This document shows positions 5,011-59,631 of a stretch of 64,000 nt of DNA, piece after piece. A model generated the notes under the pieces. The model was not told the DNA's origin and searched no databases. It saw only the letters and a list, made by a program, of their open reading frames with translations. The stretch is from Pagrus major (Eukaryota > Chordata > Actinopteri > Spariformes > Sparidae), in contig NC_133225.1 of assembly GCF_040436345.1 (NCBI RefSeq), positions 20,874,040 to 20,938,039 of the forward strand. The letters are read 5' to 3'. Numbering within the stretch: the first letter of the stretch is position 1; every line of letters starts with the position of its first letter. The position numbers and the translations under genes are program-made.

Positions 5011-6796
5011 ATGCTGAATACTTTGGCGGGAGGAGGCACGCTCTGCGGTGTGGCTGCCCTCGTGCTTCTCATCGTTTCGACGGCAACAGACTTCTGGATG
5101 CAGTATCGATACTCGGGCAGCTCCGCCAATCAGGGGCTTTGGAGGTTTTGCATCAACCACAAATGCCATGCGCACACCATAACTGTGGGTGAGTACTTCA
5201 GGAGTGGCATCTGGCAACCCAATTGTGAAAAAAAATGTCGGCTATGTAAATTTCTGCAAACCACAGATATGTTGAAACTATAATTATCTTTATGTTGAAG
5301 CTTTATGTTTCTTTAGGTTAAATTTTATGTTGTGACAATGACAATGACTGTTTTGGTCACCACAAACATTGGTGCACAGGAGTTCTCCTAAAAAAGTATC
5401 CAGTGGTTTCACACTTGCAAATGTTGAAACAGAGTCTCAAACTGCAGTCACTGGTTTGGCAGTGATATAAACATAAAAATGTCAGCATGCAACCTACAAT
5501 CTTAGTATTTCTGGTAAATCCAGGAGTAATCCTGTTGTATCTGTTGATGTGTATGTGGTTCTGACCTTTCTGTCTCCAGCCTTCTGGGATGCCACACGAG
5601 CCTTTATGTTGCTGGCGGTGCTGAGCTGCTTCGCCGGCGTGGTGCTCGGTCTGAGCGCCTTCACTAATGGCACCAAGAACAGGAGAGTCCGTACAGGCGG
5701 CATCGCCCTGGTCCTGTCAGGTAACATACACACTTACTGACAGGGTGACCTGGTGGTTGGAGAGACAGCCCTGTCAGCTCAAGGTTATGTACTAAATTCA
5801 TCTTCAACCTCAATTCAAATTCATCCTGATTGTATGTCTGTGGTTGAAGATTATAGAGCAATTCGAGTTACAAAAACATGCTGCTATGGTTGCCTTTTTC
5901 CCTGCATTAGAGTAATTTGTCTCAGGTCAGTGGATACCCAGGGGTTAGTTCAAAAATCTGTATCATGCTATGATGGATAATTGTTGTGAAGTGCAAAATG
6001 GTGCACTTTAAATATATGTTGACCAGTTATATAGGTTGGAGCTTCTTGCATGTATCTGGACTTCTTGCTGAGTGGATTTTTAAAGTTTCCTTTCACCCTC
6101 TGTTCTCAGGTTTTCTTGCTCTGCTGGCTTTGGCAATTTACACCGGAGTGACTGTCACCTTCTTTGGCAAACGCTTCTTGGACTGGCGTTTTTCCTGGTC
6201 CTACATCATCGGCTGGGTGGCCATCATTTTGGCTTTTGCAGCAGGTATTCACTGTTTTTATTTATTTACAGTAGTTTCTTCATATTGGAAAGATGTTCAT
6301 TTATACAGTATGTAAATTGTGAAGCAATTAGATGTGTGAAGCAGCCCAGAGGCATAATAGAACTACACCAGTGCTTCAGGCTCTGCCCAAAACCAGTAAA
6401 CTGTCCAATAAGAAAAAGTTTTAAATGTCTTTTGATTTTTCTTCTCTTGTTTTATAGAAAGGTAAGTATTTAAAGCCTCTATTTGTAGGATTTGAACATT
6501 TCAGTCTTCAGTAAAATACTACTTAACTAACAATAATCCACAACTTCCACAGTAAAAAAAAAACAATGCTTTCCCTTTCTTTGAAAACAATTATTGGTCA
6601 TAGTGAGCTGGATTTCTTTTTGAAATGATGAACATATCTTGAAGAATAACCTTTATCAGTTATATTTGAAGATTCCTGTTTTACTTTACACTCTCGCAAA
6701 ATAAAGACTTTTTTCTGTATTTCAGGTGTGTTTCAGCTCTGTGCTTACCAGCGGACCACTGCAGAACCTGCTCCTTCAAATAACCCGGACAGCTGA
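5011..6796 (+). CDS. lim2: Lens fiber membrane intrinsic protein (LIM2/MP20-like), 4 coding exons
   Basis: Coding exons are 5011-5188, 5580-5720, 6110-6244 and 6726-6796. The sum is 525 nt, or 174 aa, close to mammalian LIM2 (about 173 aa). It belongs to the PMP22/claudin tetraspan family: TM1 about residues 4-25, an extracellular loop with W29, G42-L43-W44, C47 and C52 (the family W-GLW-C-C signature), then TM2 about 66-88, TM3 about 101-123 and TM4 about 137-159. The segments WMQYR, GLWRFC, ATRAFM, LALAIYTGVTV and DWRFSWSYI are strongly LIM2-like. All internal junctions have the same phase (one base before the junction). LIM2 is a junctional protein of lens fibre cells, linked to cataract in mammals. 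Teleosts carry several lim2 paralogues and I cannot say which this is. An AATAAA at 6871-6876 lies just after the stop. Confidence 0.92.
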
Positions 6797-29430: not shown

Positions 29431-29746
29431 TAAGAAACCGTTACCTGATGTGTTTTGTTTGTGTACTCTATGCGTGAGCTGCCCGAGGCTCAGGTGTAAC
29501 ACATACAATCCCCAAGCCAAAGGGTGTTGGGTTTCTACCCAGCAGGGTCTGGCTGGCCTCTTCCAGCTACAGTTACCAGGCTACTCTCATCACTAATTCA
29601 TCTGGACTCCTCACCACAAAGCTCTGGGTGGTTGGTTGGTTGGGCGGCTGGTCGGGTAAGCTGGGGGAAGGACAGGGTTTCTCTCTTGGCCAGAGCAGTG
29701 CACCACCTGGGCTCCCAGTAGAGGACTATACCTGAGCTGGGGCCCG

Positions 29747-44290
<14,544 letters not shown>

Positions 44291-47200
44291 ACATTTAAGA
44301 CATTAAGAATGTGTATAAGCTTTTAATGTTGCCTTCGCAGTCCTCACATTCATTTGTAATCACGTACTTTCAAACCATGACAGGGACTGCAATTAATTCA
44401 GCCACTTCCCTTTGAACAGTCAAATGAGAATAAAGTGCTCCTAAGCAGATCATCACTCCTAATGTCAAATACTTACAAAACAAATCACAGAAAATTGCAG
44501 TGTAGTTTTGAAAACATTTTGTACTGATATTAAAGATTGAAATTAATCTAGGTATTTAGCTAATGATTTTGTTCTGGGTGGAAAACAGTGACAGTAAAGT
44601 TAGTTGGTTAACCAAAATACAGGCTTATTCCAATTTTTATTTAGGATAAAAGTTTACAATTTGTTTAGAGAGCTCCCTCCACATACATATAGACCATTAT
44701 GTGAAGGATATGTTAACACTGTGTCAGGAACTGCAAAACAGTGGACAATCATCCAGCCATCTAGGAATCAAGAAAGTTAGATAAGATCCAGTAAATCCTT
44801 TTCTTCTGATGAAGTACCACTGGGAAAAACAGGAGAGGATCAAGGAAACAGTTTTGGGTCATCCAAAAGTCAGAATGTATTAGCCTACATCTGCATTACT
44901 AATAACCTATATAAGCTTAACATTGACATGCATGTTTTATGTAATAAAATATTTGTCACTGTATTTGTGTAACATTTATTTTCTGAATATAAGTGGCTCC
45001 AGTGCAATTAAGTACTTATAACTTCAATATTCTGAGTCCTCCAAATAAGGACTGATCTGAGCTTGGATATAATATTTGTTTTAAGTCATTAATCAAAATT
45101 GTCATCTGAAAATGGAATAATCTGTGTCAAGGAGGACAATCTCCAGCTGTGATCCATTTTCCCACATGATCATCAAACAGAAACTAATCTCATAGCTTCC
45201 CACAGTATAAACATAAATCGAAAAAAGCTAGCTTGTGTGCATGCAAACATTTTTCTGAGGAGTCTCCTGAGGCGATTTTTGCCTGAAAACCAAATGAAGG
45301 TATCCATGCTCATGCATTGATATTGATTAACACTGCATCACACACTCACTTTTTCCCCTTCTTTTGTCACAGGAAACTTTTCTTGTTTGTTTCAAAAAGA
45401 GAATGTAAATATACTACTATCACTAATCTTAGTTTCTCTTTCTGTCTGTCAAAAGAAAGGAAGCCGCAAACTACATGTTGGAGTTTGACAGTTATATGTT
45501 TTCTGGCACACCAAACAATTTCAACAATGTATAGAGCCACTTTCCCCCCTGACACAAAGGCAAGTAAACACTGACCCGCCAAATTTCAAAATGTAGTTTG
45601 ACTCGATGTCACTTATTCTGGCTACGCTGTTCCAGCTACATCATTATTTGTCTGAAAGTGACTTTGTTTTAAGACTTTGTATATGATTGCATCTCGTTAT
45701 GAAGACCTGCATATGTATGGCACGTTCCACTTGTTTAAATTGTAAGTAAAGAGGTTGAAATCATAGTTGTAAAGCCTGTTTATTTTTATGTAATACTTTA
45801 TTTTTATGTACACTCACATGCCATTTCTGTCAAGCACATTCAACATTTACACTTCATTTTCACTGGAATCATACTGCAAAGGTGTTAAAACGAGACACAT
45901 CTCAAACATTATCAGTGATCATTTGAGTGATTTCTTTGGTAATTAAGTGACAGTCTGACTGATATGAGACATGACAAATTATGTGCAAGATCAGCTGGGT
46001 GACTGAGTAATTAAGAGCAAGACATAAATGTTTCAGTTTCATATGTTATATAATAGTTATAATAGTACAATTATCTATTACAATCTAGCTTCAATGTGTG
46101 TCTTCACATTACCCATTCTATCAGACTGAACTCGAGCTATCCAGTGATTAAATCACCTCCCAATCCCTTTCATGAACAATGTCAGTTGACAGCAACTTAC
46201 AGTTTTAAACATCTCTGAGAGACAGAGAAGGTCGATGAAGCGAACTGAGGTCCATGAAAGGCAAGAGAGGAGAGAGGGGAGGGATTGATATTATGAACGC
46301 ATATTTGAGTTCAGTATCGGTTTGAGCTGGTTAGCTAAACTTCTTATTCCAATTCTGCCCTGAAAATCATCAATTATTTTGAGCAATTAAATGAGAAAAC
46401 TGTACTTTTCCCAGATGGAAATATTGGACTTTTTCAGATCACTCAAATTACATTATATATATTTTCCTAATTACTCTCACTTGCACATGCTTTTAACCTT
46501 CTGCACATACTTTTTTTCCATCCCTTAAAGACATATTTCTGTTGAAATTTTTGCTTTGATCAGCACACATGAACTACATCTCAAAACCTGGGCAATTAAA
46601 ACCAAAACTATCTTCATAGTTAAACACCAGTATATGTAGGAGAGAAAAAAATTGGGTGATCTGATGGGAGCGTTTGAAATTAAGAGAGCCGAACCACACC
46701 AGTGATACAGAGAGTAATTAGTAAAGTGGTAAAATTACTTATCGAGTAATCTACTAGTGCAATAATATATTTATTTAATACTGTCAAAGATAGTAGGCAA
46801 CTTCAATCTTCATATGACAGAAATTACACTTAATAAGATCTTTATATCAGTAATAATCAATAGATAATGTGGATATTAAGCAATGTAAATAGTATGACCT
46901 TTAATGCAGTGTAATACATCTCAAATAAATACTGTCAGCATTAAATTTTTTGGTCACATTTCTGAAGTTGACAGTGGAAAATAATGTTCTACTATTGACA
47001 ACTCAAGCTCATTTTCAGGGTATGTGCCTTTTCCAATAATCACAATCTCATTATGTACCTTTTATTTCCCAACAAACCATGATGTCTCCAATACTGACAA
47101 ACACAGGACCAGAGGACCCCATAGAGGGATACTAATTCTGTAATTATATGAATTCTCTGATTTTATGATCATTTCAAGGTTTGGGGAGTTTGATTTGCTT

Positions 47201-47975
47201 CACATGCATCACCAGAACAATAAACACATGCATTGTAATGTGCTGTATAAACTTGGAGGCCTCTGGCAGGCTGAGCTATGTTTCATTTTAGTCAAAGCAT
47301 TTTCACTTTCAAGCACCTCTACGAGATTAGGATCAGCTAGTTTTCAGTGTTTGATGTTCTGGGGATCAACTGCTCGAACATTACCGTATGAAGAACCTTC
47401 ATCAACACATTACTGTACGAACATTCATTGTATATAAAAAACTTCAGAAAGGAAATGATACATGAACAGTAGTGGGTCTCAAAAGCATCTAAGCAGTCCT
47501 AAGTGTCCATGTGCTTAAAAGGCATAATGCTCAACCAGAATGAAGTATCCCATTAAAACAATTGCCTGAATGACCACAGAGTGCCTCGATAGCTGGACTG
47601 AAACGCGATGTTTGAAACTCATATATCATAAAAGCACTTGATGTAGCAGTACATCTATAGAGCAGTGCATGTATATAGCTCAAATCTGTTTCCCTAGAGA
47701 TATGTATGTGGTTAAGAGTGTATTTTATCAATACATCACAGGTTTGAAGTGTTCAATCAGCCCCAGCACTCTCTTTATACTTTCCTCTAAATCAAAGTGT
47801 CATTGCTAATACTGCTGAACATTTCAATGCAATAAAATAACAATCAGACAATCAGCAATCCTGCATCTTATCCTGGTCACAGTTAACATGAAAACTCATC
47901 AGAGCTTGAAAACACATCCAACAACCCCCGATGATATCACTCAGTCTGCTGCAACAACAGCTCAAATCCAACCAG
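44291..47975. other. Intergenic, tail-to-tail gipc3 and tbxa2r
   Basis: 3.7 kb separating convergent genes and including both 3' UTRs. AATAAA motifs occur on the plus strand near 44429 and 44943. No coding exon recognised. AT-rich. Confidence 0.55.
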
Positions 47976-50900
47976 TCACGGAGAAAGAGAGGGCGCCTTC
48001 TGTGTTGATGTGGCATTTGATTTCTCCGGCTCTCCTGATTCATCCGAGCCCAGAGTGCTCCTGAGTGAGGGGCGAGTGAACCTGCGGACGGTGTCTCTGA
48101 AAGACGGGTACAAGCTCATGATGGAGTCCCGATGCATGTCGAAACGGGGGTAGATTCTCTTAAGAACTGCCCTGCGAAACAGGATGTATACCCACGGGTC
48201 CAGGATCTGGTTCCAGGTGGCGAAGCGTAGCCACAGCAGTAGGTATCTGACTTGGAGCCGACTTTTGGATAGCACAGTTTGTGCAATAAAGACCTGGTAG
48301 TCAGGGAGGATGGAGGAAAGGAGTGGGGGAAGGGTGAGGTGAGATGGGATGGGAAGAGAGGAAGTCAAACAGTTGCAGGGAAGAAAAGAGGTGAATTAAA
48401 AATTATAGTTGAAAAGAGTGGGAAGGCAAGGATTGAAAATAAGGAATGAGAGAGAAAGAACAAAACTGGTTAATTTAAACAGACACACATGTGCAAAGTC
48501 CACTAAGGCTAAATTTGCCATGGCCCTCCTGAGGGCTTAGAGTTGTCTCAGTTTCAACAGTTCTCCAGTGGCATACAAACAGTGCAAGAAAGAACAGTTA
48601 AATAAATTCACTTCATAGTGTTTCAAAACTGTCGCATGCAAGTGTTGAGACGATCAAGTGCAAACCACAGTTTTAGTTCGGCAAACTTTTCTCAGAGGCA
48701 GAGGTGCTGCAGACACTGGTACAACCAAAGATTTCCAATGTATAAGTTAGCATAGCGTCTAACTTCCACTATGGTCTTACTTACTGGCACTAAGACTGTT
48801 TCAAGATCTGAGTGTAAAATAGGCTAGATAAGTAGATAAGCTACTATACCGTATAATTACTGAGCCTGAACAACTTTCTCAATGTTTGGCTCTTATTTGT
48901 GAGGATTTCTTTAGCTCTGCTTCAAAGAAATGTTTGAGCAACTAAATACAGCTACAATCTGCAGATCATTAAGCTATCAGTGTTTAGCAGAAAAACACCC
49001 ATCTGTGTTAGTTTCGGGAAATGAAAGCAATAAACAAACATGACAAAGGGCTTGAAACTATTTAGTGAATTGTTTATGATCTCTCTGGGAATGGAATGAG
49101 TGTACAAAGTAGCAAAATGGGCCACTGGCTGCACTATGAAGCATGCTCCTTCCATGATACCTGGGTGATGGAAGTTGAAAGTCATGGATTAAACTGTGAT
49201 GTTCTTCCACAAATTTTATTGGCAGATGTTTAGCACATGCTGAGGCATAGACATAGCTCAAAGTTATGATGGTTGTGAGAAATGACAATGGGAAAGATGT
49301 GTTATTATTAAAAAATTTAATTACGTTTTTGCTTTACATTTTACTCGCCTTAGCCAGGAAGCTCTACACATGATGTATATCCAGGGGTCAAATATCTGAT
49401 TGCAGGTGGCCATTCGTATGCAGAACAAAACAGTATCACTTCCTACACGATCACCAGTCACCACGCACATCAGTGTATATATCTGTGCAGGGGGTCACAC
49501 AACTGGGGTTAGAAAGGAATGCGGATAAATATGAGGTCCAATCAAATGGCTTTGACCCTCCTGTTCCTTACTCTGCATGTTGGGCTGAAAGCAACACAGT
49601 GACTGCACCAGTTTTCATCAGGATTTTCTCACTTTATATTAATTAAAACAAGAGAAATTTTAACAGTATTATTTTAACCACAGAGTCATATATCATGATC
49701 TCTTGACATAATGATGAGCTGTTTTTTGTTATTTATAAAAGGGCTCTCCTGCCCCAGTGAACCAACAGTTCTGACGGATAAGCTACCACCATAATGTTGC
49801 TGATAATCCCTTATAGCACAGAAAGGGATGAATGCACACAACTACGGCAGGTGCTCTAAGTCAAAATGTTATCAGGAAGCTGGAGTGTAGAGAATATTTA
49901 CAATTGACAGTAAGGTAATAATTTAACCTTGACTTAATTTTCTTTCCAGATAAATTTGGCTAATCAAGGGATTAGTTGTCACCATTTACGATTGTTCATT
50001 TTGACATTGCCATGTTATCTTTGAGTGCAATGTTATAACCGACAGAACCAATAGTTGGAGCCACAAAAGTAAAACCTGAGTTGTAAACCAGAGTTTTCCT
50101 TTAAAGGCAGTGATTGCATGGATGACATGTTCTAAAGCTGTGTGTCATCTCAACTCAGGCATTAAGGGGCACTTTGATCCTGGGTAAGACCAGAGGGCCT
50201 TCAGATCAACTGTTTAGGAAGTTGCATTGCTAAGGGGAAATGAAGCATAGAGAGGGGAAGCGGAGAAAAGGAGCTTAGGACCTTGTGATTAAATGTAGTT
50301 GTTGGGTAGAAAGGTTAATTGACTGAGTAAAAGAGATATTAAATCAAAAGACTAGCAATATAAGCAACAACAAGGATGTGTGTTGTCAAGAGAGAGCTTG
50401 AATCAGCAAAAATGGTGTCAGCACTTCCTCCACGACCTTCTAAGCAGAAGTTCAAACTTCAATGAAGTAATAAATCTTGCTGCGACTTCCTGGAAAGGTT
50501 TTCTGTGACTTTAGCTAAAGCAACTCACCAAGCCAGGATTTCAGATTTCTACTGCTTAAACAGGAGTTTGATATTCAAATATTGATATTTACTTATTTCA
50601 AATGTACAAACTCACCAGTAGGGGGCACCAGCAGATAGAAGCGATGACCATGATGAGGATGAGCTGAATCATCATCTCTACTTCGTGATCTCGGCGGCGC
50701 TGTGACCTGTCCTGTCCGCAGCACACCTTGATCAGGGTCACCACGCTCACCGTGTTCAGCAAAAACGACACGGCGATGCTGAACAACCCGACCAGGGAGA
50801 AGAGCAGGGAGAAGGCCAGGTCGTTTCCCTCAGAGCTTATGTTGAAAAAACACCAGGAGCCGGGTATCTGCATGTGGTAGCTCCCAACGCCGGTTAGGGG

Positions 50901-51413
50901 CAGCAAAGATATGCAGCCAGCGATCAACCACACCATCAGCACCATGGAGACTGTCCGGCCCTTGGGCATGCTGGTGGTGCGTGCAAATGGACGGTTGATG
51001 CCCATGAAGCGCTCCACGGCCATGGTGGCACCAAGCAGCAGCGGGCACAGTCCATAGAAGACCATGGACATTCCCATGAAGTTGCAGAAGTGGCAGTTCG
51101 GATCTAACTTACGCCAGTCAAAATCTGTGAGACGGAAGGAGATCACGATGGAGCCGGTGACCAGAAGACCCATGAAGTCAGTAACCACCAGGCCGCACAG
51201 GAAAATCAGAAAGAAGGAGCGGGAGCGGTTGTGCGTCCGCCGGAAGGAGTTGAGGAGAGCAATGAAGGCGATGAGATTGGAGATGAGACCCAGAGCGGTA
51301 AAGGTGGATGAGAAGTATTTTGAGGCGACTGGGGAAGTATAATTGAATGGAGGGTTGTTGATGGAGTAGCAGACTGGGGTGTAGTTGGCGAGATGCTGGG
51401 TTGAGGAAATCAT
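47976..51413 (-). CDS. tbxa2r: Thromboxane A2 (TP) receptor, 2 coding exons
   Basis: Coding exons are 51413-50616 (266 codons) and 48293-47976 (105 codons plus stop), joined in phase 0 (CTACTG|GTGAGT, CTGACTACCAG|GTCTTT), giving 371 aa. This is a class A prostanoid GPCR of the plasma membrane that couples to Gq and G12/13 and drives platelet and smooth-muscle responses. N-glycosylation sequons lie at N10 and N24. TM1 is about 36-57. The E134-R135-F136 triplet replaces DRY, close to the ERY of other prostanoid receptors. The loop-2 signature [15 protein letters not shown] is at 175-189, with a likely C110-C188 disulfide. [20 protein letters not shown] leads into TM6. R289 and NQILDPWVY (294-302) in TM7 form the ligand-anchor and NPxxY-equivalent region. 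The intron after TM6 is the classical prostanoid receptor position. Kozak ACCACCATGA is good. The tail is Ser/Thr-rich. An alternative TM7 exon lies in the intron. Confidence 0.95.
49215..49220 (-). terminator. Candidate poly(A) signal for the alternative tbxa2r last exon
   Basis: TTTATT on the plus strand reads AATAAA on the minus strand, 101 bases beyond the alternative stop codon. Confidence 0.4.
49321..49482 (-). CDS. tbxa2r: Alternative TM7/C-tail exon inside the tbxa2r intron
   Basis: On the minus strand, acceptor CCCCCTGCACAG is followed by 53 open codons and TAA at 49323-49321. It is in phase 0 with the only upstream donor (50616). From the exon start to the DPW motif it aligns without a gap to the canonical TM7 exon: 15 of 40 positions are identical, including R289, A291-T292, N294-Q295-I296, D298-P299-W300, Y302-I303 and R306. 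The [10 protein letters not shown] block becomes [10 protein letters not shown]. The tail is short and basic, ending KCKAKT. Joined to exon 1 it gives 319 aa. A minus-strand AATAAA at 49220-49215 would end such a transcript about 100 bases after the stop. It may be a used alternative last exon or a decaying exon duplicate; open frame, phase and poly(A) signal favour the former. Confidence 0.6.
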   Translation of the reverse strand: MYTLMCVVTGDRVGSDTVLFCIRMATCNQIFDPWIYIMCRASWLRRVKCKAKT

Positions 51414-52074
51414 GGTGGTTGGCTGTTGTGGGTTGTTGATTTCAGATGAATCAAAGATGGGAAGACAATACCGGTGAGTGGAATTTCATTTCTCTCTCCA
51501 TCCTTAAAAGAAGAAGACAAAAGTTGAATTTCAGGACATGCTCTATAATGGGAAGTTTGGCTTGCAGCAAGACAGATATTAAAAGTGCATTGAAACATAC
51601 AATATAAATGAAACAAGCAACAGAATGAAATGGAAAGAGTTGGACAGGTTTTGATGCACTTCACATGTGTCAGTCTTCATGTCCAAGCCACTGTGAACAA
51701 TACATTTTTGTTTACTCTTGTGGATACAATGCTAAATGATGCTTATCCAACTTAGCCTGAATACGCTGCAAAATTTCAGGTCCTAAAAATTGGTTTCTTT
51801 TCACCTGTCTATTTTCTTTACATGCAGTGTAGCCAGATTATCTAACTCAGCGAGCGCCAACCGGGATTTCTACATTGATTTCTGATCGAAAACCCAGTGA
51901 TCTTCAGTCTGAACATCTAAGACATCTTTACGTCCTCTTTTCAACCAGCTAAAATGTGGTTTCAACATCAACGATAGACCAGTGTTAAGGTTTTTCTCCA
52001 AAGTCATATTGCACTGGTAGGTGAAATGTGGTCTACAAGATGACGTAATTTCAGCGCAGTTAATGTTTCATCTA

Positions 52075-52281
52075 CACTACTCAAAATGAGTCAGGGATAT
52101 TGGGCTATTTTAGTGTTTCACCTGATTGTTTATTCTTTGACATGAATTTTTATTTTGTGTTTTGTGAACATTTTTGGTCCCCCCAGAAAATGCGACACAT
52201 TTCATTTGACTTTTATTGCATATCTATTTAGATGCATATATGCAGCCATATCCCCAAATCCCTAACTCATTTTGAGTAGTG
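52075..52281 (-). mobile_element. MITE, family with CACTACTCAAA ends, copy 2
   Basis: Inverted ends CACTACTCAAAATGAGTCAG and (reverse complement) CACTACTCAAAATGAGTTAG each lead into GGGAT. The interior, read on the minus strand, matches copy 1 at 23858-24036 (ATGTGTCGCATTTTCTGGGG, ATGTTCACAAAA). The two copies are therefore in opposite orientation. Confidence 0.85.
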
Positions 52282-53637
52282 ATTAATATAGAACTATATG
52301 GGCTCTGAGCAGCCAACAGGAAGCTTGCAGGACATCCTAATGGGAGACATTTTATACATTAATGTTAAATTGCACTTACTGCTGTAAAGGACATGTGGAA
52401 GTACTTAGAGCATTACAGTATTGACTACTCTGAACCGTGACTTGTGGAGCAAATTGCACAAGCTGAAGAAAACTACAAGGCTTCACCCACTAAACCTATA
52501 TGTGGCTAAACAAGTGAACCAACCATTCATCATTGACAAAATTGGCAGATTGATCCCTGACTTTGTTATTGCTTCAAAAACACCTTTTAGAATCTACAAG
52601 TGCAAATGTGCAAATAAGCACATACTGTCATTTTGGAGCCTGACAAAGCACCACATCTAAACGTTTTAGTTGAAAAGCAGTACTGCAATTCCAGTTGAAA
52701 TATGGTCTACATGTGAGTATCTAACCAATGTCTTAAAATAACTGGTGAGAAAACTTTCACTTTTAAAAGTAAAAGTGAACCAGTTCTGAATGTCTTTTCA
52801 CCAGTGACCATAGATGGTTTTTAAACAGGGAAACCACTTTTTTTTTAGGTAAAACTGAAAATGAATGTATCCAAAATGTCCGTCATTGTACAGGAAACTG
52901 AACCTGGCAATTTTCCCTCATTTTCACTTGTCTGGTTATCTTGACGGCTCTTATTTCTTTGTTTGCTTTATCTGACATCTTCTTAAGTGATGTAACAATG
53001 TTCCCAGATCTCAGCAATGTACTTGTCAGGTATAGTATTATATATCAATACAAATTACTGGTACAACTACAAAATAATAGTTCAAATAAATGAGGATGAT
53101 CATTTAAAAAAACAAACAGTTTAATCCAAAGCATCTTGAAGTACAGTGAGTGCATTTTTAGGATGGCCAATGTAAAGTCAATGTAACAGCTCAGACACAG
53201 CACGTACATAACACCCACACAAACGCATAAATACAGTGACAGCATGGGACAGAGATGGAGAGAGTGACACGGAGACTGAAATAGACAGAGAGTAGGAGAG
53301 CTGGCACATCCTGGCAGGAAACGCAGTTCTGTGAACAGTACTGACAGAAACACCAACAGGAAATGAACACATAATCTATGATGTTGTCCCTAGTGGTCTG
53401 TCCCCAATACACTGCCCGTCATAGTCAGATTGTATGAGAATGAGTTCAAGCGAAGTGGAGGTGCACGTTAGGCTGGATAGTGAGGTGAAATCAAATACGA
53501 GAGATAAATAATTTAGGTTTCTTTTTCTTGAACAAATATTTGTTTGATGGCATATCAGATGGATATCATTATGAAACAGTGAATATAAAAATTCCATGAT
53601 GCTATATGGAAAAAAATAACCTTATTCAAACAATACA

Positions 53638-53658
53638 AACCCTAACCCTAACCCTAAC
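53638..53658 (+). repeat. Short interstitial telomere-like repeat (CCCTAA)3
   Basis: Three consecutive CCCTAA units followed by a CAATAA degenerate unit. Too short to indicate a chromosome end. Confidence 0.9.
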
Positions 53659-55769
53659 AATAACATATGATATACACTCATACCGAAACTAACAAGATAC
53701 TTTTTTTTTTTTTTTTTACCACTTAGTAAGCTATCAACATAACTACTCACTCTGATCTTATCAACTTCCTGTGAGCATCCTAAAAATGTGTAAAATATGT
53801 TTACTGTAGGCGTTGAGATAAGAAATAATAAAGTAGAGAAAGAGAAAAAGAAAAAGAAAGAAAATGGAAGGCAATTCATAGATGGTGAATAAACAATTAA
53901 AAGTACTGGCTATTAATTTTGTACCCAGAAATTGTGTTATAAAAATAGTTATACAGGATTTTCCTGCATATGGAAATTTTTGTCACTCATCCAGATATTT
54001 TGCTGTAGTCCATTGTTTAACTAAGTAAACTTTAACCTAGAGGAAAGCACACTGGACTGTGCAGGAGATTAAACAATGAGGGTAACAAGTTTAGTAACTT
54101 GATCGAAAAAGCAGGAGCAATTTTAAAAGGATGCAAATGCAGCACAAACTTTATTTATTTCGTTGACTTTCCAGCACCACCATCTGCCATTTTACTGTGG
54201 TCCTGCTTTTTGCATCACATTTCACACAAAACACAATGAGGTGCATTGCTGCATTGCACTTTACCATTCCTTATGTCACACACTCTCGTAGTTTGTCAGG
54301 GAAAACAAAACGTCTTGATGGTTTAACTGCACCACAGCAAACGCAAGAAACAGGTGTCTTTTTTTAGCCAGTCCCACCCTTGAATTTACGTCTTCAAAGT
54401 AAGAAGCAACAAAACTACAAACAGTGGGGGACAGTGTTTTAAATCCTATTTATAATTTCCAGCTTGTTAAAAAAAAAAATGCCCTTATATTAACTTAAAT
54501 TGAAAAAGTTTGATACACCATTTACTTTTGCATTTAGCATGTCAGAACAAAACAAGAAGGAACTTGCATGCAACTCACACATTACAGCTGACAATAAAGT
54601 TCAAAAGACTTTGTTTTTACCTTCTAAATAGAATTGGCTGTTGTTTTATGTGTTGTGGCTGATTCACATCGGGGTTGAAATACTTAACAAGAAATTTTTC
54701 AAACCACTTGACATCCCCAGATGGCACAACACCTCTGCAAAACAAACCTACATCCTTTAAGATCACATATTTGTAGTTTTTTTTACTATACCTTTCTGGA
54801 GAAACTGATATCATCTTTGAATCTGCTTTTCGTCTGATTGTACAATGTGATACATGACTCACGATGCCCAATAGCAATGACAGCAGGTTTTGTCTAACTG
54901 TCACATTTTCCCAAAAGGCAGAAACCATTAAGATACATAACTTGAGAGAAACCTCTGGCTGTCCCACTAAAAGCTAACTACACAATAATCAGGTCGTTCC
55001 ATCCCTCAGAGAATACCAGGATGAGACAGATGGGGCTTGGCGCCAGCTCTTGTGTGACCATGAAAACCTTTTGAGAGTCCCATTAGCCAAAAGAGCCTTT
55101 TAGCGTCTCAGATCAATAAGTCATATTCAAAATGGTTTCCTATTTAAACTAATGGGGGACCACAAAAACTTAATCATGAGGTGTATGTACTGTATGGAGA
55201 ATGCTGAGTGTGTGCGAAAACATTTTTTTTTTTCAAATGCTATACAGATTGGCTCCTAAATACTCTTGTGGTTGCTCGAAATGAAAACATTTTGAAACCT
55301 CTGGAATAGTTTTGCTGTCCACTCAATATCCTGCTCAATCCATTAGTACTGTTGGCTTATATGATTATTTGTTTTCCATGTTCTCATTGCACCATCTTAA
55401 TCAAATTTATTTATAATGTCCCTTAATAAAAAAGGTTGTTACAAATTGCTTGATCGAGGCAAAAGACACAAATGCACATGAAAGAGAGCAATAAAGAGAG
55501 AAGATAATAAAAACAAGAAGAACACGATTAGCGCAAAGGAATCCAGCTATGTGCACTAATGTCGCCAAGCCAAACTCTTTTGCATTTAGTCTGCTTGGCT
55601 GTTAAAGTAGTTTTGGCATTGTGCTCTCAGTGAAGTAAAGAAATAAAACCTCAGCCTGCTGGTTTTACTAGGTTATCTTATAATAAATTATTTCAAATAA
55701 AAGACTCAGAATAAAACAGGATTTAAAAGTCTTGACCCTGTATGATTCTCACACATAGACCCATAAGAG

Positions 55770-56339: not shown

Positions 56340-57134
56340 TCACTAAAGAGACATGTTGATAAAGGTTCTCAGTCATCCAGGTCATGGTAATTCTAAGCGC
56401 TGTATCACAGGCAACTGGACTTGTTTCAGTTTGTTGAAGACGTTTCACCTCTCATCCAAGAGGCTTCTTCAGTTCTAACTAACTGGAGAGGAGTTGGCTG
56501 GCTTTTAAACTCTGTGTGGGAGTGTCCTTACAGAGTCATTAAGGACACGTGTGAGCTCTGAGTTTCAGAGTCGATAGGGCCACTTCTTTCACACCATCTG
56601 TCTGCTCTGGCCAAGAGGTTTACATTGTTGTCCTCAAAGGAATGATTTTTCTCCTTCAGATGTAAGTGGACAGCAGAGTCTTGACCTGAGGAGTTGGCTC
56701 TCCTGTGCTGTGCCATGTGTTTATGGAGAGGTTGTTTTGTTTCCCCAATGTACAAATTTATGAGTTTTTCAGATGTTCCTGCGACATAAGGAATGACGAT
56801 GTTGTTACATTTTCTCGTCTCCTCCTCTCTGTCTGCTCTGGATCTTTTAGAGGTTTTGACAGAGGTCCAGTTTGGGTAGCCACAGGCTTTAAGTGCTCCC
56901 TGATGCGCCTCTGACTTTGTGGTCACGGTCTCAGCCCTATGGTTTAGGGTTCTGATGAACCCCAACTTGTGCTCTAGTGGGTGGTGAGAGTCGAACAGCA
57001 AATATTGATCTCTGTGTATAGGTTTTCTGTACACCTCAATGTTGAGGCTTCTGTCTTCTTCAATGTGTACTGCACAGTCCAAGAAGGGCAGACTGTTTCC
57101 TCTGACATCTTCCCGTGTGAACTTGATGTAATTG
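56340..57134 (-). mobile_element. Penelope-like retroelement fragment (RT end plus partial GIY-YIG)
   Basis: From 57134 down to 56528 the minus strand is one open frame: KFTREDVRGNSLPFLDCAVH, then NIEVYRKP and DSHHPLEHKLGFIRTLNHRAE (the C-terminal part of the Penelope-type reverse transcriptase), then NNIVIPYVAGTSEK, and LYIGETKQPLHKHMAQHRR with SAVHLHLKEKNHSFEDN (the second half of the GIY-YIG endonuclease). AGTSEKL runs straight into INLYIGET, so the linker and the GIY half of the nuclease are missing. The 5' two-thirds of the RT is absent. The 3' flank (56390-56480) carries the GTTGAAGACGTTTCACCTCT sequence I associate with the untranslated ends of this fish element. The copy is inactive by truncation. 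Confidence 0.8.
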
Positions 57135-58073
57135 TATATATTACATATTTATATACTAAATGAACAGGTGGAATAGGCATTACATGTTCATTTTTTACAA
57201 GCTTGGTAGAAAGAAACACCACTACTCTATGCATTAAATTTAGGAAAAGTAGGAAGGTAAGTAGATAAGCATCTTCTGCAATGGGTCAAAAAAAGGGTCC
57301 AGCATCACTTCCGAAAAATCTGGGGCCAAAGGTTTTGGTTTCTGGCAAACCTTCCTCCCTAAAGGGTCAGGCTGTTGTTTATTTTACAAAGTGCACTAGT
57401 GGGATTTGACTCATGAATGCTGGCCAATTTTGGTGTCATGTAATTCCCACTGACCTAGATAAGAACCACAGCTACAATACCAGGGGTAGTGCCCAAGATA
57501 GTTACCCATTAAAGGGTCAATTAAATGCTTAGTTGTGCCTCAGCTCTACTTCACAAGACTGGAGTTTATTTTGGATTACTCTTGAACAATATTCTATCAT
57601 TAAATTATAATACTCCCAGGTCTATGTTGGTTCAACTGACATAATGACAAATGATGAAGATGAGAAGTTAAACTATACCTAATACTTCTAAACTAGGGTA
57701 AATGTGCAAAATGAAACCAATCTAGTCAACTCTTTGATCGCAACAAACTAAAACGATATCATCAAAGTTGAATATATACAACTTCCACTAGGTGCCTTAC
57801 CAAATAAGAACCATATAATAAAACTATTTATCCTGATATACTGCAACAACATCTATAATCAGGTATGTCCAAAGGAAAGGTGAGCTGACAGACAAATATC
57901 GAAACCAAAGTCCCTAATATGTAAACAATTCCTCATTCCATATTTCGGGGTTCCACTACAGCGTTGATATGTTAAATTATATATTTTAAGTCAAATGTAA
58001 TATTTTGTGTTTCCAAATGAAGATATGAAGTATCACAAATGTGGCTGTACTAAGTAAATCAAACTTGTCTTAC

Positions 58074-58420: not shown

Positions 58421-59631
58421 ATTGTATTTTAGGCAGAACAATGAGAAACAGAGAAAAGTCGTAAAGCATCAAACTGAGCTCAGTAAGTGGTGCACAGTGG
58501 GGAGAAAGGGCATTTGTCTCATGTTCAGCTTTAAATTAATTTAGTACATGTGTGAGTGTGTGTGATGGGGAGGTGAAAGTGGACAACATGTTAATGATGT
58601 TGCTGTCCCTAAAAGCTGCAGAAAAGGATCAATGAAAGATTGGCCAATACATCACAAGATTAGATTTGTTTTTAGCACACAGCACTTGGAGGTCTGAACA
58701 ACTACAGCACTTTCATTGGCATTTTAGCCAATGAAAGTAACTTTTATAGGACCTACAGTACATCTGAGGCTTTCCTCAAAACTGTAAAAAGGCTAAGATG
58801 TTATTTGCATCACATCAGGGAAAAATTCTCTATGACAATATTTCTAATGCAAATTATTACTCCAGAACTTTTGTTGACTTGAGACTACAGAAAACGGAAT
58901 AATAATCAACTTATTACCAACCAGGACACTGACATTAGATTTAAAGGGTAACTCCAACAATTTTAAAAATTCAAATGTGTTTATAGGTCTCAATCCCAGG
59001 GGAGCACTACTGCATTTGTGAATAAAAATAGTATAAAGCCTTTTGTGGTTCCAGAGGAAGCTGCATGTTATTTGATAAATTGCCTTCAGTGATGTCACTG
59101 AGAGGTCAAGTGGCATTGTGGGTAATGTAGGCACCAGGCTTTGAAAAGGAACAAGAATGCATGGAATTAAAAAGGCGATATCTCTGGTTCTGCTGTATCG
59201 ATTCTGATCATTTGATTCAAACTGTCCATAAGTGTTAAAGGAGTGCAATGTTAGACCGGTAGATTGCTGTTTGACTACATTACCCACAATGCAACTCAGC
59301 CACTGAGTGAAATAACTGGAGGCAAACACAGCCCCTCCTCATCAGACGACTCCCTCATGAGTGATTGGACCCTACACTCTTCCATAAGTAGTTAAAAAAT
59401 GACCCGTATTAGAAACAATGCGTTTTTGTGCCATTTTTGTCATTTTTGCTAAGAATAATCATTTATGTTATGTTTTGTATTGTACACACAAGAATGATTT
59501 CATGTTTGAGTTATTTTTATTTTTCACTTTTTAACATTTGGAACATGTTCAAACATTTTGAACAATAATAATTGAAAACAAAGAAAATTGATTGCACAGA
59601 ACATAGCAATAGAAAAATGTCAACATTCATT

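Follow-up and report, generated by a model that had tools for sequence, protein, structure and literature searches.

A second TM7 exon in an intron of the Pagrus major thromboxane receptor gene tbxa2r, a candidate alternative last exon

The thromboxane receptor gene tbxa2r of Pagrus major contains a second, homologous exon for transmembrane helix 7 (TM7), located within the intron between the TM1-TM6 exon and the canonical TM7 exon. The best explanation, which we hold with moderate confidence, is that this intronic duplicate serves as an alternative last exon or did so until recently. The second exon was probably functional in the past and perhaps still is, and this one gene may encode two receptors whose cores differ. 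If the exon is used, one vertebrate gene would swap a whole ligand-facing helix by alternative splicing, reaching beyond the tail, and a prostanoid receptor would diversify without gene duplication. Such use would also offer a natural test of which TM7 residues control lipid entry from the membrane and which control binding and switching, in a family of receptors that are drug targets and important for clotting.

Gene layout and homology of the second TM7 exon

The window, i.e. the whole stretch of 64,000 nucleotides analysed, carries tbxa2r on its minus strand. The gene is identified by its TM1-TM6 exon, which matches the human thromboxane receptor (TP) with an E-value of 1.4e-78 (phmmer). 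Its features are, in the direction of transcription:

50616..51413, minus strand: common coding exon from the start codon to the end of TM6, 266 amino acids (translation; phmmer to human TP)
49483..49520, minus strand: putative acceptor region of the second TM7 exon, with TTCTAAC, a rival AG and ctgcacag (sequence; AG scores)
49321..49482, minus strand: second TM7 exon, comprising the end of TM6, extracellular loop 3 (ECL3), TM7, helix 8 and a TAA stop; 53 amino acids, phase 0
49215..49220, minus strand: AATAAA, candidate poly(A) signal of the second TM7 exon (sequence)
47976..48293, minus strand: canonical TM7 exon, 105 amino acids, phase 0, TGA stop; 66 residues past position 7.56 (translation; tblastn)

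The first-pass annotation of this DNA had proposed an open second TM7 exon in the intron after TM6, and its reading holds: positions 49482..49321 comprise 53 codons and a TAA, in phase 0 with the donor at 50616. Two homologous TM7 exons of equal phase are arranged in tandem within one gene. In a tblastn search of the whole window, the canonical exon aligns with the second exon ungapped and from residue 1 of both, with 17 of 47 residues identical (E 9e-8) and 15 of 31 in the core; these values replace the 15/40 identity given previously. A third TM7 copy is absent from the window, where the next best place for the canonical exon reaches E 0.67. Prostanoid receptors constitute 18 of the 20 PDB matches of the second exon up to E 10, including the best 16 (phmmer), with human FP (4.5e-7) and human TP (4.1e-6) as the best. 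At the DNA level, 51 bases match the canonical exon at 78%, at an equal offset from both acceptors, and the 300-base flanks of the two exons show no nucleotide match between the copies. Pfam returned no family for the second exon and likewise none for the canonical TM7 exon alone, where 7tm_1 was sought. No repeats of at least 20 bases that include the second exon were found, and positions 45000-54000 contain no match to an RNA family. Because the match is ungapped, shares exon start and phase, reaches E 9e-8 and extends to prostanoid receptors in the PDB, the second exon is, judged by its sequence, a duplicated TM7 exon and not a chance resemblance.

The age of the duplication can be approached through a tree and through the length of ECL3. 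A four-sequence tree of 31 residues is star-like with an internal branch near zero, and the second copy has a branch 2.5 times as long as the canonical exon does (0.55 vs 0.22). The copy may have arisen at roughly the time when the fish and human receptors separated. From the exon start to Arg 7.40, both TM7 exons span 23 residues, compared to 33 in human TP and 25 in human FP. This equal spacing implies a short third extracellular loop common to both copies, which would fit a duplication postdating the shortening of the loop.

Searches of contig collections (prokaryotic, viral and plasmid) with the TM1-6 protein gave 23 pattern matches in genome_contigs and five in viral_contigs, none of them a relative. 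Four viral_contigs loci matched by the second exon were rejected as chance, as all four contain 10-12 gap columns and none keeps NQI or DPW; two of the four carry stop codons inside the match.

Splice signals and the predicted receptor

We postulate that the donor at 50616 would be joined to 49482 and that the coding sequence, ending at 49321, would give a prostanoid receptor of 319 amino acids; cleavage after the AATAAA at 49220 would end the second-exon transcript. Splice sites were scored with weight matrices built from general splice-site frequencies. The donor after 50616 (CTG/gtgagt) is in the top 0.3% of GTs on the minus strand. Among the 148 AGs of the region, the second-exon acceptor (ctgcacag/ATA) ranks 10 and the canonical TM7 acceptor ranks 4; among the 3900 on the strand, the second-exon acceptor falls in the top 3.5%; by these scores, the acceptor of the second exon is mediocre. 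A rival AG 20 bases upstream, with exon start at 49502, scores 3.43 vs 3.41 for the proposed acceptor, and its use would lead out of frame to a stop after 10 codons. By eye and against the general consensus, TTCTAAC resembles a branch point; its A lies 27 bases upstream of the junction. The rival AG may be too close for use, since it lies about 6 bases past TTCTAAC. The AATAAA noted in the first-pass annotation is present 100 bases after the second-exon stop (49220-49215), and it is weak evidence, because the chance of such a hexamer within 101 bases is about 10% (70 occur on this strand of the window).

These signals bear on a possible, if doubtful, alternative, namely that the exon was retired recently, having worked for most of its history and lost its use too lately for a stop or frameshift to appear. 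The mediocre acceptor with its equal rival AG is in line with this account, as are the long branch of the copy and a third-position GC of 0.43, which is intron-like (intron, 0.38; canonical exon, 0.63; TM1-6 exon, 0.76). These features also weigh against the main reading of an alternative last exon. In addition, the constraint signal described below is an average over time. A retired exon is, however, less readily reconciled with a frame, a phase and residues known to matter that are all intact.

As the first-pass annotation had it, the predicted joined product (266 + 53 = 319 amino acids) places the Arg at 289 and the Trp of DPW at 300; translation bears out both coordinates and reading. Positions were mapped by ungapped alignment to the human TP numbering of PMC13039517. 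Among 12 pocket, switch and helix-8 residues, nine equal the canonical exon (7.36, 7.40, 7.43, 7.45, 7.46, 7.49, 7.50, 7.53 and 8.47) and ten equal human TP. The other three are 8.52, which agrees with human TP, 7.39 (Ile) and 7.56 (Cys). All seven of Arg 7.40, Thr 7.43, Asn 7.45, Gln 7.46, Asp 7.49, Pro 7.50 and Tyr 7.53 are present in the second exon.

Mutants of human TP described in PMC13039517 indicate the weight of these positions: potency falls about 200-fold in R295F, activity is lost in T298V and N300A, the response is reduced in D304N, and of four Q301 mutants three fail. The same paper lists 7.36, 7.39, 7.40 and 7.43 as the hydrophobic or carboxylate contacts in TM7. A change in ligand contacts had been anticipated for the isoform; three of these four positions are identical between the two exons, and the anticipated change comes down to Leu to Ile at 7.39, together with an altered gap face. 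The substitution at 7.39 may matter, since the human TP mutants L294F and M112L/L294M showed little activity (PMC13039517).

The gap face comprises 7.37, 7.41, 7.44 and 7.48, which, according to PMC13039517, line a cholesterol-filled cavity formed on closure of the TM1/TM7 gap, and simulated ligand entry is described there as proceeding mainly via TM1/TM7. At none of these four gap-lining positions does the second exon equal the canonical exon. It shares Phe 7.37 and Met 7.41 with human FP and has Cys at 7.44 and Phe at 7.48. The Trp-to-Cys change previously pointed out just before NQI is found at 7.44, where human TP, human FP and the canonical exon all have Trp. To our knowledge, Trp 7.44 does not occur throughout the whole prostanoid family, so that Cys 7.44 is no bar to membership among prostanoid TM7 segments. 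Mutagenesis of TP Trp299 and Arg295 was reportedly performed by Funk in 1993.

Past position 7.56, the second exon encodes 14 residues, two of them Ser, Thr or Tyr, vs 66 with 18 such residues in the canonical exon. The isoform would keep the carboxylate-binding Arg 7.40, Thr 7.43, the Asn 7.45/Gln 7.46 switch, DPxxY and Arg 8.47, and would gain another ECL3, another face of the TM1/TM7 gap and the shortened tail. With pocket and switch kept and gap face and tail changed, the prediction is a receptor that binds and switches and differs in membrane entry and regulation. The likeliest effect would be altered ligand entry or selectivity combined with weaker tail-dependent regulation. Only tentatively do we go further and suggest that choice between the TM7 exons provides two working thromboxane-type receptors, with splicing retuning membrane entry or prostanoid preference and weakening desensitisation.

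Human TP alpha and beta are isoforms generated by alternative 3' coding sequence, with identical helices and different tails, and we know of no mammalian TP isoforms that differ outside the tail. EP3 isoforms are similarly described as identical over the seven helices and different in the tail (PMC7509579); the tbxa2r exon shares with them an alternative 3' coding sequence in a prostanoid receptor, and would change TM7 as well. The first-pass view that a TM7 swap would be unusual has to be qualified in light of the rat EP1 variant (Okuda-Ashitaka 1996). According to the review PMC7509579, this variant has a TM7-like segment, lacks an intracellular tail and is inhibitory to signalling by EP1 and EP4. 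The predicted tbxa2r isoform would likewise be a prostanoid receptor splice form with a replaced TM7 segment. Unlike the segment of the rat variant, which belongs to a different gene and is described only as TM7-like, the fish tbxa2r exon is a clear homolog of the canonical exon and keeps Arg 7.40, NQ and DPW. The human FPs variant is also altered at TM7; as summarised in PMC3477067, it is a 6TM truncated, functionally inactive form that loses TM7, whereas the tbxa2r exon would replace it. Alternative last exons also alter the C-terminal part of a class A receptor in Drosophila OAMB-K3 and OAMB-AS, where, according to PMC2650798, both isoforms work and differ in second messengers. OAMB is an insect amine receptor whose isoforms differ from the third cytoplasmic loop onward, whereas the difference in tbxa2r would start after TM6. 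A literature search confined to one open-access library listed no paper on an alternative TM7 exon of tbxa2r and no vertebrate prostanoid receptor with a duplicated, homologous TM7 exon.

By analogy with what is reported for the rat EP1 variant, the next likeliest effect of the isoform would be a brake on the full receptor. An off-switch of this kind, in which the product is retained in the cell or dominant negative, or in which the rival AG (49502) leads to a six-helix truncated product, is in our judgement unlikely as the explanation of the exon. It would accord with the inhibition of EP1 and EP4 signalling by the rat variant (PMC7509579), with the inactivity of the human six-helix FP form (PMC3477067) and with the equal score of the rival AG. 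Against this reading, nine of the 12 pocket, switch and helix-8 residues are kept, which an off-switch would not need.

Residue pattern and neutral decay

The residues of the second exon were compared with those expected from neutral decay. In this test, the canonical exon was decayed under three settings until 14-16 of 31 residues were identical, as observed, with no stop, and the accepted copies were compared with human FP and TP. The observed identity to human FP is 17, vs 11.0 +- 1.6 expected in decayed copies, a contrast somewhat inflated because FP was picked as the best PDB match. Identity to FP as high as observed occurred in 4/4262, 0/3998 and 1/5977 accepted simulations, and the BLOSUM score to FP was reached by none in all three settings. 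For human TP, the BLOSUM score was reached in 17/4262, 13/3998 and 15/5977 simulations, and identity is less extreme (89/4262, 96/3998 and 120/5977). The BLOSUM score to the canonical exon is not extreme, being reached in 528/4262, 543/3998 and 637/5977 simulations (11-14%).

In a second set of simulations, the starting sequences were FP, TP or canonical residues back-translated with random codons. The BLOSUM score to TP was reached in 4/939 runs from an FP start and 2/642 from a canonical start, and that to FP in 0/716 from a TP start and 0/642 from a canonical start. Similarity to the canonical exon was obtained more often: from a TP-like start, its identity was reached in 142/716 and its BLOSUM score in 23/716, and from an FP-like start in 110/939 and 12/939, respectively.

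Of 21 sites at which the canonical fish exon and the human TP and FP receptors all agree, the second exon keeps 14, compared to one of 10 variable sites (p 0.004). Matches between the two exons at the first, second and third codon positions number 20/32/18 over 47 codons and 16/26/14 over the 31 core codons. The excess of second over third positions (Fisher p 0.0034 and 0.0015, respectively) is not proof of constraint, because selection on the canonical copy alone contributes to it. Estimates of dN and dS (0.39 and 2.2 for the core by NG86; 0.76 and 1.2 for the whole by YN00) do not provide a usable ratio, because pairwise dS is saturated or undefined. The 141 aligned bases contain neither an indel nor a stop. 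At 0.4 substitutions per site, the chance of no indel would be about 0.011, assuming 0.08 indels per substitution, and that of no stop 0.14.

These results make it very unlikely that the second exon is a never-used duplicate, i.e. a neutral copy of TM7 that arose recently enough to be still recognisable. Taken alone, identity to the canonical exon fits about 0.4 substitutions per site (mean t 0.42 in accepted simulations), and the unexceptional BLOSUM score to that exon is equally compatible with a neutral copy. The similarity to human FP and TP is nevertheless too high, conserved sites are preferentially kept, and indels and stops are missing. The residue pattern apparently misfits neutral decay from a canonical, FP-like or TP-like exon, and long-term constraint at the protein level is its best account, one that is compatible with recent loss. 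Of the earlier suggestion of an old duplication kept under constraint, the duplicate itself, its apparent age and a non-neutral pattern stand, with the reservation that some simulated measures are not extreme. Although open frames of 50-60 codons are common and the stretch holds at least 84 frames of at least 35 amino acids, a chance open frame in the intron is excluded by the match scores in the window and in the PDB (9e-8 and 4.5e-7), the ungapped alignment and the shared exon start and phase.

Neighbourhood of tbxa2r

Further open frames and repeats were observed elsewhere in the window. On the plus strand, an open frame at 29660-30079 contains a GIPC1-3 GH1 domain (E 1.9e-17) and is probably an exon of gipc3; GIPC3 adjoins TBXA2R in human. 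Another plus-strand frame, at 5974-6315, matches the final part of the PMP-22/claudin family (E 6.8e-10). On visual inspection, two minus-strand frames look like the final parts of mobile elements: one of 206 amino acids at 56528-57148 like that of a Penelope-like retroelement, with a GIY-YIG-like stretch and an insignificant Pfam match, and one of 164 amino acids at 58844-59338 like that of a LINE ORF2, with no Pfam match. Upstream of the tbxa2r start, two 34-base segments (52075-52108 and 52248-52281), 139 bases apart and 88% complementary, form an inverted repeat that resembles a small inverted-repeat transposon.
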